A DNA stretch of 64,000 bases. It comes from Simmondsia chinensis (Eukaryota > Streptophyta > Magnoliopsida > Caryophyllales > Simmondsiaceae). The notes under the pieces were generated by a model. It worked only from the letters and a program-made list of their open reading frames with translations. It searched no databases and was not told the origin of the DNA. Positions 1,009-41,444 of this stretch are shown here, piece after piece; within the stretch, counting starts at the first letter, position 1; every line of letters starts with the position of its first letter. A program made the translations under genes and the position numbers. The stretch is taken from NCBI GenBank assembly GCA_018398585.1, contig JAGTTD010000009.1, positions 14,823,193 through 14,887,192 on the forward strand, in the 5' to 3' direction.

Positions 1009-1070
1009 CAACAACAACAACAACAATTGACCCAGTGCCTCAAGGGCTCCTGCATATGCAGGATCCCGCT

Positions 1071-1102
<32 letters not shown>

Positions 1103-1172
1103 GGATGTACGCAGCCTTATCCCTTCAAGGTGTTGCCCTTAAGGGAGGCCGTGTTCGTGGACCCCCAACTTG
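1009..1172 (-). mobile_element. SINE copy A: Au-like body with (TTG)n tail, no 5S head
   Basis: Read on the minus strand it runs from TTGGGGGTCC through a central GGGATAAGGCTGCGTACATC and GAGCCCTTGAGGCACTGGG to a (TTG)6 tail, the layout of plant Au-type SINE bodies. It interrupts the CACTA protein remnant between the halves at 690-960 and 1170-2035. Unlike copies at 22816, 23539 and 41084 it stops where the 5S rRNA-like head would begin, so it is 5' truncated or a headless variant. A run of 31 G (1071-1101; C on the SINE strand) replaces the short C-rich stretch of the other copies. No clear target duplication was found. Confidence 0.75.
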
Positions 1173-2035
1173 AGAAGAAGAAAGGCAAACAGGCATAAAG
1201 CATTAAAGCACAGAAGTATAAGAGCAAGAGCAGTAAGAACAAAGGCATATGGTTATGATGCAGCTAGGAAAGATATTGAAAGGAAATTAGCTGAACTTGG
1301 CTTTGAATATGTTGATAATGCAAAGCTCGGTGAAATTGAACGTATGGTTATGATGGAGCTTATGGGTGAAGATAAGCTAGGAAATGGAGCTTATGGGTGA
1401 AGATAAGCTGGGAAAAGCACGTGGCTATGGCATTTGGTAACCAGAAGCCAAGTTACTCGGCTTAATCAAGAGTTGAAGAGAAAAAGAAAGGAAGACATAA
1501 GCACAAATCGGGATAATGCAGTCCTAAGCCGACTTGATAGCATGTAGAAACAGATGGATAGTGTGATACAAAGAAATAATATGTTAGTCCGAGCTTCATT
1601 GGTATTGACTTGGTCTGTTTGGTGGAACACAAATGCATCCAGCTGGGGATTCCTTTTTGGCGACTTATGTTGGTGGTATGTCCAAAACTCAAGTAAGAAA
1701 CTAATCTAAAACTTCTCCCTTTTGAGCTCTGTTTATTTATTTGGGGAAAGATAGACAAAAATTTCTAATTAGTAATTTTCATACTTTAGGGTGTTTCCAG
1801 AGCTTATAATTATACAAAATTTTCATTTAGTATTATCATACTTTGTTTAGAAAATGTTCTTGTGGCATTATTGGGCTTGTGGCAATACTTCTGTTTGTGC
1901 ATATTGTAGGACTTAGCTTTCTATTTTTCTCTTCTTTTAGGTTGGAGATGAATCAAGTGTTGATGATCGCATTACTCCATCACCCATTGGTAATGCTCAA
2001 CATGGATGACAGAAAGAGATCATCAAGAAGATGAA
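1170..2035 (+). pseudogene. CACTA accessory protein, C-terminal remnant
   Basis: Immediately after SINE copy A a basic stretch (RRRKANRHKALKHRS) leads into KLAELGFEYVDNAKLGEIER and GEDKLGKARGYGIW, the last resembling the G-R-V-R-G-Y-G signature before the coiled-coil tail of Ptta/En-Spm proteins. Further on, about 1622-1695, GGTQMHPAGDSFLATYVG reads cleanly and is followed by a plausible 5' splice site (GTAAG). A last piece near 1945-2010 reads GDESSVDDRITPSPIGN before a stop. The 20-base string GATGGAGCTTATGGGTGAAG-like motif occurs twice near 1352-1405, a small tandem duplication. Several stops break the frame. Confidence 0.5.
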
Positions 2036-22815: not shown

Positions 22816-23070
22816 ATCAACAACAACAACAATAGATCCAGTGCCTCAAGGGCTCCCGCCTAAGCGGGTTTAGGAGGGTTGGATGTATGCAGCCTTACCC
22901 CTTCAGGGTGTAACTCTATCGAGAGGCTATTTTCGAGGACCCCCAACCTTCTAGGGTTGGCAATACGAGGACTTCCCAGGAGGTCACCCATTATGGTAGT
23001 ACTCTCACTCAAGCACGCTTAATTTTAGAGTTCTAATTAGATCTGGCGTATTAGTGTCTGGTAAATGAAC
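22816..23070 (-). mobile_element. SINE copy B: 5S rRNA-like head, Au-like body, (TTG)n tail
   Basis: On the minus strand the order is GGTTCATTTACCAG, then about 98 nt matching plant 5S rRNA (from CACTAA to CTCGTATTGC, including AATTAAGCGTGCTTGAGTG and ATGGGTGACCTCCTGGGAAG), then GCCAACCCTAGAAGGTTGGG, the Au-like body, and (TTG)4 at 22820-22832. The junction of head and body is the same as in the copies at 23539 and 41084. No target duplication is evident; the 5' side is disturbed by a 78-bp tandem duplication. Confidence 0.85.
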
Positions 23071-23207
23071 CCTTGTTTACACAAAGATTCTTGCTCTTAT
23101 TTGTAAAAGGTAAGACTACGTGGCTCAACTAGTGTCTGGTAAATGAACCATTATTTACACAAAGATTCTCGCTCTTATTTGTAAAAGGTAAGACTACGTG
23201 GCGCAAC
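23052..23207. repeat. 78-bp tandem duplication at the 5' edge of SINE copy B
   Basis: Two adjacent units (23052-23129 and 23130-23207) begin TAGTGTCTGGTAAATGAACC and end in a GTGGC-CAAC segment, with a handful of differences. The first 19 bases belong to the SINE head, so the duplication followed SINE insertion. Confidence 0.9.
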
Positions 23208-23522: not shown

Positions 23523-23538
23523 CATCTCAATAATTTAT

Positions 23539-24234
23539 ACAACAATGTTAGGAAAATGTCTCAAAATTCCTTGGAAGTTCAAGTAGGGATGCCGTGAGAA
23601 GGCCGATCGATCGATCGATCGGGAATGTTACCTAAGTTTGGGACGCCTGCAGTGAGCTCTCCAATTGATCGGGAACGGCGTTTTCACGCGGGTATAAAGT
23701 GTGACATAGGGTTTGTACGTTTGTATCCAAAAATATTCTTGTGAGGTTTCCCAGCTGCGGCACACCAAAATAGAGAGAGAGAAAATGAATGATTGTAATT
23801 CTTATTTTTGATTCAATAATAAAAGTTTCAATCTTCACCCGTGGTTTTCTCTCATTTCGATTGTAAAGGGTTTCCACGTAAATCCTTGTATCGTTTGTTT
23901 CTTTTCTCTTTTAGTTCATTATTTCTTGTATTGTCGTGGTATTTGATTCGGATTGCATAACGGGAGTAGAGTCTTTCCGCACAAACAATAACAACAAACC
24001 CAGAGCCTCAAGAGCTCCCGCATAAGCAGGGTTTGGGAGGAGTGAATGCACGTAGCCTTACCCCTTCATGGTGTGACCCTGCCAAAAGGCTGTTTCCGAG
24101 GAACCCCAACCTTATAGGGTTGGCAACACGAGAACTTCCCAGAAGGTCACCCATCTTGGTACTATTCTTGCCCAAGCACGCTTAACTTCAGAGTTCTAAT
24201 AGGATCCGGTGCCTTAGTGCTAGTAAATGAACCC
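23539..24234 (-). mobile_element. SINE copy C: 5S-headed SINE split by a solo LTR
   Basis: Outer flanks carry a perfect 16-bp duplication, CATCTCAATAATTTAT at 23523-23538 and 24235-24250. Inside, on the minus strand, come the 5S-like head (24234 to about 24125: CACTAAGGCACCGGATCC, GAAGTTAAGCGTGCTTGGGC, GTGACCTTCTGGGAAG), the linker GCCAACCCTATAAGGTTGGG, the Au-like body and a (TTG)-type tail. The tail is cut by an LTR insertion (23546-23983). Removing that leaves a unit of about 253 bp. Target duplication of this length implies LINE-type retroposition of head plus body as one unit. Confidence 0.9.
23546..23983 (+). mobile_element. Solo LTR of a copia-type element, 438 bp, inside SINE copy C
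   Basis: It starts TGTTAGGAAAATG and ends TTTCCGCACA, flanked by AACAA at 23541-23545 and 23984-23988. The strand is set by the typical R-U5 text CCCGTGGTTTTCTCTCATTT followed by TTTCCACGTAAATCC. A short GATC repeat lies at 23602-23621. The solo form results from recombination between two LTRs. Confidence 0.85.
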
Positions 24235-24250
24235 CATCTCAATAATTTAT

Positions 24251-40874: not shown

Positions 40875-41077
40875 TAGGGGTGTCCAAGGAAAACACGGAT
40901 GGAAAAGTTTGGAAAAATATAGTTTAAAGTTGTTTTTCGGACTAATCTAATAGACTATGGAAAACTAAAATACAATTCCCCAATTGGAAAACTAGTCTTT
41001 TAAGCAAGTTCTCTACTTTCATTTTCAATGGAATTCCAAGTAAAGAATAAAATTTTCAGTTTTTAAACACACCCCTA
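40875..41077. mobile_element. Small TIR element (MITE), about 200 bp
   Basis: Inverted ends TAGGGGTGT and ACACCCCTA; interior carries GGAAAAC/TTTTCC words like those at 21880 and 46890. Its right end was the target of SINE copy D. No matching 8-bp duplication. Confidence 0.5.
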
Positions 41078-41083
41078 GACTCT

Positions 41084-41316
41084 TCAGGTTAACACGCCGT
41101 CACCGGATCCCATTAGAACTCTGAAGTTAAGCGTGCTAGGGGGAGAGTAGTACCAGGATGGATGACCTATTGGGAAGTCATCACCCTCAGGCTGAGGGCA
41201 CTAGGAAACAGCCTCTCTTCAGGTTAACACACTGAAGGGCAAAGGCTGTGTACATCCCCCCCCCCCCCCCCCAAGACCCTGCGTAGGCGGGAGTCCTTGA
41301 GGCACTACGTATGTTC
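41084..41316 (+). mobile_element. SINE copy D: 5S-headed SINE with perfect 21-bp target duplication
   Basis: Flanked by the same 21 bases at 41063-41083 and 41317-41337 (TTAAACACACCCCTAGACTC plus T). On the plus strand the 5S-like head runs from CACCGGATCCCATTAG through GAAGTTAAGCGTGCTAGGGG and GTAGTACCAGGATGGATGAC to GGGAAGTC, then a linker with CCCTCAGGCTGAGGG, then the Au-like body GGAAACAGCCTCTCTTCAGG ... GGCGGGAGTCCTTGAGGCAC. The (TTG) tail is eroded to TATGTTC. A 17-C run (41256-41272) sits in the body. The string TCTTCAGGTTAACAC occurs both at the element's 5' edge (41081) and in the body (41217). Confidence 0.92.
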
Positions 41317-41444
41317 TTAAACACACCCCTAGACTCTACGGCACCTCTCATGAAACACTAGATTTAGGATTTGGATCATGCCATTAGAGCAAACAATTTC
41401 TTTGCAGCTACCCTCAGGGTTCGTAGGTCTCAACTTATCCTATT

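Follow-up and report, generated by a model that had tools for sequence, protein, structure and literature searches.

A dispersed family of SINEs with 5S rRNA-derived heads and LINE-derived 3′ ends in the jojoba genome

SINEs headed by 5S rRNA sequence constitute the SINE3 class, which, according to excerpts of the respective papers, has been reported from vertebrates and some insects (PMC7245038) and from fungi (PMC5063351). Its members, among them zebrafish SINE3/AmnSINE, insect HaSE3 and fungal AfuSINE3, join a 5S head containing boxes A, IE and C to a LINE-like 3′ part (PMC7245038, PMC5063351, PMC3272025). The elements described here, from jojoba (Simmondsia chinensis), show the same layout but reside in a plant, and their heads match the host 5S gene at 94%. 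The springhare element Ped-1, as entered in Table 1 of PMC3747384, is of the same design, with a 5S rRNA head and a tail from BovB, a LINE of the RTE clade; it is an animal element, likened here by that description, whereas the jojoba elements pair a head matching their plant host's own 5S gene with a tail matching that of a plant LINE. The tobacco SINE TS parallels the jojoba family in being a plant SINE that shares its 3′ end and TTG repeats with an RTE-clade LINE, but the account of TS excerpted from the same source (PMC3747384) gives it no 5S head. Where a paper from 2024 about 5S promoters in plants touches on SINEs with acquired promoters, the relevant excerpt cites animals (PMC10853983). 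A search confined to the open-access literature, mostly titles and the beginnings of abstracts, showed no plant 5S-headed SINE among the papers listed.

The heads of the jojoba elements match 5S (RF00001) and not tRNA. In contrast, the TS head is tRNA-derived, and the Au SINE and the Angio-SINEs, reportedly treated by Seibt et al. in 2020, combine tRNA-derived heads carrying boxes A and B with an Au-like 3′ body. The likeness of the jojoba body to Au is a putative one, its label being that of the preliminary description of this locus. Cassandra TRIMs have two LTRs, each with a 5S sequence, and produce 5-bp target duplications. Excerpts of PMC10853983 and PMC7215508 describe Cassandra as a plant retroelement with a 5S-derived promoter region, a feature it has in common with the family here; it is an LTR element, however, while the jojoba elements lack LTRs, lie between long target duplications and end in LINE-derived sequence.

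We consider it highly probable that the jojoba elements form a dispersed SINE family in which the 5S head likely acts as a Pol III promoter and the LINE-derived 3′ body and tail likely recruits the reverse transcriptase of an RTE-type LINE. By structure, membership in SINE3 is well supported; what appears new is that the element lives in a plant and has a plant LINE as its partner.

Copies B, C and D in the window

The window, the whole 64,000-nucleotide stretch that was analysed, corresponds to C4:14823193-14887192 of the 831-Mb host assembly, which comprises 35 contigs. Three sites in it score at or above the gathering threshold of the Rfam 5S model, and these are the copies termed B, C and D (Table 1). 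Over copy D the RF00001 match spans 41082-41192 on the plus strand (61.4 bits). The preliminary description had assigned about 98 nt of this copy to 5S; the resemblance to 5S stands, but not the length, as the host 5S gene aligns by BLAST only to 41101-41179. Compared with one host 5S gene, copy D itself is identical at 87 of 100 aligned positions. The perfect 21-bp target duplication attributed to the copy is present, enclosing 41084-41316, and both of its arms are preserved in the duplicate loci L001-L003. In addition, the same 16 nucleotides occur at the 5′ junction of copy D (41080-41095), where they span the filler and its flanks, and within its own body (41215-41230). This repeat, also present in L002 and L003, suggests that the junction may bear the scar of a template switch at AACAC that preceded the joining of the 5′ end to the target.

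Further copies had been reported at 22816 and 23539, with the same head-body junction as copy D. Both exist, as copies B and C, the two positions lying near their low-coordinate ends, which are the 3′ ends of minus-strand elements. They do not share the copy D junction: compared with D, they have a full-length 5S head, a different junction and a (TTG)n tail, and belong to another subfamily. The first nucleotide of copy C corresponds to 5S position 1, and the 16-bp duplication previously ascribed to this copy was located (Table 1). Approximately 700 bp lie inside that duplication, of which 438 bp behind the SINE tail are probably a solo LTR that inserted later. A 3′ transduction would be the other reading of the ~700 bp, but TG...CA ends and a repeat of 5 bp, TTGTT, favour a nested solo LTR. 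The duplicate locus L062 was considered as an empty site for this LTR and rejected, because the start of the LTR is present there with one base changed.

No target duplication was found for copy B by the automated search for flanking repeats (score 5). A tandem duplication of ~78 bp, seen by eye at window positions ~23052-23207 (minus strand), takes in the first ~20 bases of copy B and may be the reason that no target duplication is visible. Elsewhere in the window, a body followed by a (TTG)n tail stands without a 5S head, possibly as a 5′-truncated LINE copy. For each of copies C and D, contig C4 contains two near-identical duplicates (90-95%), one pair being inverted, and the region of the window appears to be segmentally triplicated, at 14.85-14.86, 15.33-15.35 and 15.73-15.75 Mb of C4.

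Table 1. Features of the 5S-headed copies and related sequences in the window
Feature	Position	Strand	Basis or detail
Body-only copy, (TTG)n tail, no 5S head	1015..1174	-	sequence comparison
Copy B, LINE-derived body and (TTG)n tail	22818..22949	-	sequence comparison; no target duplication
Copy B, full-length 5S head	22950..23072	-	RF00001 45 bits at 22955-23074; C consensus aligns 23072-22830, 88%
Copy C, 3′ target site duplication, 16 bp	23523..23538	-	read directly
Probable solo LTR nested in copy C tail, outside the SINE proper	23546..23983	-	438 bp, TG...CA ends, 5-bp TTGTT duplication
Copy C, LINE-derived body and (TTG)n-type tail	23984..24111	-	sequence comparison
Copy C, full-length 5S head	24112..24234	-	RF00001 75.1 bits at 24118-24238; C consensus 1-244 aligns 24234-23992
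Copy C, 5′ target site duplication, 16 bp	24235..24250	-	read directly
Copy D, 5′ target site duplication, 21 bp	41063..41083	+	identical to 41317-41337
Copy D, filler TCAGGTT, 7 nt	41084..41090	+	not in D-type consensus
Copy D, D-type head	41091..41185	+	5S-derived portion ~41101-41180, containing boxes A, IE, C
Copy D, LINE-derived (Au-like) body and tail, terminus GTATGTTC	41186..41316	+	D consensus against five LINE 3′ ends, 80-85% identity
Copy D, 3′ target site duplication, 21 bp	41317..41337	+	identical to 41063-41083

Family size and the 5S-derived heads

The elements number in the thousands and are scattered over both strands; they fall into two main subfamilies, each with a fixed junction. 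Searches of the host genome gave 6,678 first-look candidates with copy D as the query and 11,064 with copy C, and all of the 40 candidates scored for each query matched (40/40). In the D-type subfamily the 5S sequence ends near position 107 and is followed by CTCACCCTCAGGTTGGGGG, whereas in the C-type it is complete and continues through GTGTTGCCAACCCTATAAGGTTGGGGG. Both consensuses are ~240 nt long, and the copies are short and non-coding. Junctions were counted over the whole 831-Mb genome with 30-base patterns across each junction, allowing at most two mismatches; the patterns were built from the consensuses, and the counts therefore cover near-consensus copies only. The two subfamily-specific junctions occur 8,127 times (4,060 and 4,067 by strand) and 3,614 times (1,900 and 1,714), while the same 30-mers reversed occur nowhere in the genome (0 occurrences), which excludes a chance adjacency of 5S and body. 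Thus copy D, which the preliminary description had put forward as a genome query, has not a few but thousands of relatives with shared head-body junctions, and its reading that a plant SINE family carries a 5S-derived head and was moved as a unit is structurally supported by these counts together with the target duplications described below.

A random sample of 20 stretches of 10 kb (200 kb in total), placed on 17 of the 35 contigs (545 of 831 Mb), contained eight copies with a junction, six of which attain the Rfam 5S threshold. Extrapolation from these 8 in 200 kb suggests a genomic total of ~33,000 copies, with a 95% Poisson range of 14,000-66,000. When the host 5S gene was used as the query in the same sample, all nine of its matches were followed by the body (eight by rule and L044 by eye), and a reversed-query control in the sample gave nothing but poly-C matches. 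At L067 (C15:19654863-19655267), a C-type SINE lies directly behind the TTG tail of an element with the same 3′ end, forming a head-to-tail dimer.

Aligned to the host 5S gene, whose copies are arranged in arrays on contig C8, both consensus heads proved ~94% identical over the aligned positions, with 108/115 positions matching one host gene in the C-type and 93/99 in the D-type. At the level of these alignments, the head consensuses retain the 5S internal control region and are without the host 5S terminator. Indeed, 5S positions 50-97 are identical to the host at 46 of 48 positions (C) and 45 of 48 (D), and the three promoter elements previously placed within the retained part are nearly intact in the consensuses: at the usual positions of the boxes in 5S, box A is identical at 15/15 and the intermediate element at 6/6 positions in both subfamilies, and box C at 17/18 and 16/18. 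TTTTT follows the host 5S genes at the three loci inspected, and TTTT is absent from both SINE consensuses; with the terminator lost, Pol III could read on into the body. ARAGORN finds no tRNA in the window, and no tRNA-derived head was identified, the heads matching RF00001. Likewise, the 200-kb sample yielded no relative of the body with a tRNA head, and its sole gathering-score tRNA match (L049:1513-1596) lies outside the body copies.

Target duplications and the LINE-derived 3′ end

Flanking repeats were scored for 47 independent copies (25 best D-type copies, 1 adjacent copy, 10 C-type, 8 from the random sample and 3 from the window), with the duplicate loci L001-L003, L061 and L062 excluded. 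The copies behind the consensuses and most of those in this set were picked as best matches to D and C and are thus biased toward young insertions. As a control, the upstream flank of one copy was paired with the downstream flank of another, in 2,150 pairings. A score of at least 10 was obtained for 34/47 copies, compared with 25/2,150 control pairings, and a score of at least 12 for 32/47, compared with 6/2,150; these counts become 33 and 31 without L067, in which the repeat is only the TTG tail motif. The repeats scoring at least 10 span 10-22 bp, and the target duplications are mostly 13-22 bp. Most stop within 2 nt of the first base of the element, and in the C-type that base is 5S position 1. 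The remaining 13 copies, B and C included, score below 10 in the automated search; copy C scores 6 despite its 16-bp duplication because the nested LTR displaced the second repeat. Duplications enclosing the body alone, an arrangement that the preliminary description had singled out for checking, were not what was found: the target duplications enclose head and body together, the 5S-body chimera having been inserted as a single piece.

In plant RTE LINEs and the SINEs associated with them, an excerpt of PMC13295347 describes a stretch of T about 10 nt before the duplication and a duplication that begins with T, typically followed by A. Before the 34 jojoba duplications (L067 included), T occupies 106 of the 170 positions from -12 to -8 (p = 5e-16 against a 32% background and 3e-9 against 40%), and the first duplication base is T in 23/34 of this same set. 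The second base is A in 11/34, without enrichment, so that the "TA" half of the RTE signature was not seen in the copies scored, which are SINE and not LINE copies.

The body of the SINE also led to its likely partner. Several body-only copies in the random sample have a common upstream sequence, which translates into the C-terminal portion of a non-LTR retrotransposon protein, and one such LINE copy, L060, encodes a reverse transcriptase (RVT_1, E 2.6e-27). At least 150 places in the genome match a 71-residue C-terminal piece of this protein, with identities of 92-100%, and the frames around some of them reach 680 codons. We read five LINE 3′ ends, those of the four longest open frames among the matches listed and that of L060 from the random sample. 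All five consist of a pyrimidine-rich untranslated region, then the SINE body, then TTG-type repeats. The SINE body and tail are 86-94% (C) and 80-85% (D) identical to these ends over 67-116 nt, with alignment scores of 57-127, compared with scores of at most 27 for shuffled LINE ends. By sequence alignment, the 3′ part of the SINE, body plus tail, matches the 3′ terminus of a LINE that is abundant in its own host genome.

Plant RTE-clade LINEs are stated to end in (TTG)n in an excerpt of PMC3747384, and 5/5 ends of the jojoba LINE have such 3′ repeats. The closest solved chains to the LINE protein are R2 and LINE-1 proteins, the best sequence match being an R2 protein. The (TTG)n end, the parallel with the TS SINE and a C-terminal motif of presumed RTE type suggest that the partner LINE is likely RTE-like, and this LINE, with its shared 3′ end, is the likely mobilizer of the SINE.

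Mobilization, origin and implications

In the mechanism we propose, TFIIIA and Pol III would transcribe the element from the 5S start point (+1) through the body. The LINE protein would then bind the 3′ end common to LINE and SINE RNA, nick T-rich DNA and, by target-primed reverse transcription, insert the SINE RNA there. The initial chimera could have arisen when a LINE reverse transcriptase jumped from the 3′ RNA of the LINE onto 5S rRNA.

That the family is a genuine 5S-headed SINE family but is transcribed or mobilized otherwise, for example with the D-type served by a LINE with another tail, or that it is extinct and represented by fossil copies only, we regard as unlikely. The D-type tail (GTATGTTC with CTTT-like ends) is unlike the (TTG)n tail of the LINE, and the sampled copies differ from the nearer consensus by 4-17%. 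However, the best-matching copies, which were chosen by similarity and are thus biased young, are only 0.9-4.6% (D) and 2.9-7.8% (C) from their consensus, and the T-rich context extends likewise to the D-type duplications in the pooled set.

It is considerably less probable that the copies are independent 5S/LINE chimeric retropseudogenes, made by many separate template jumps with no self-amplifying family. LINE enzymes are able to make such chimeras, and more than one junction exists. In addition to the D- and C-type junctions, an old, diverged minus-strand copy at L044:3305-3402 has a third, in which the 5S 3′ end GTGTTGCACCC is directly joined to TTCAGGTTAGAG; its junction is perhaps close to the ancestral fusion. 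Separate jumps would scatter the junctions, though, whereas thousands of copies have one of two exact junctions, and the heads carry subfamily-specific changes at their 5′ ends and at 5S position 79. Least probable of all, and only barely conceivable, is a Cassandra-type TRIM or fragment, with 5S within an LTR and the Au-like sequence merely adjacent: Cassandra, with 5S in its LTRs, is widespread among land plants according to excerpts of PMC10853983 and PMC10886601, but the jojoba body matches a LINE 3′ end, the duplications that abut head and tail are mostly 13-22 bp (5 bp for Ajax and plant Helenus in the excerpted PMC10886601), and flanking LTRs, which the preliminary description had named as the sign of a Cassandra element, do not abut the copies examined, no LTR lying between element and duplication save the later one in the copy C tail.

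For this 5S-headed SINE family, likely mobilized by an RTE-like LINE, we lean slightly toward an origin within plants, independent of the animal and fungal lineages, by a jump of an RTE LINE reverse transcriptase onto host 5S rRNA. Such a plant SINE3 lineage, with at least two subfamilies and tens of thousands of copies, would supply the plant 5S-SINE speculated to be the source of the Cassandra promoter. The speculation, as excerpted from PMC10886601, is that Cassandra began as a 5S-SINE within an LTR, and a plant 5S-headed SINE family bears on it. The finding also has practical consequences. AnnoSINE, by its own statement, discards candidates nearly identical to Rfam RNAs, and annotation tools of this kind can miss 5S-headed SINEs; SINE heads and 5S arrays, in turn, could be mixed up in 5S counts. 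Finally, a head 94% identical to the host 5S gene, combined with a tail that matches a LINE found in this genome too, allows the idea that SINEs are born by capturing a head to be tested directly.
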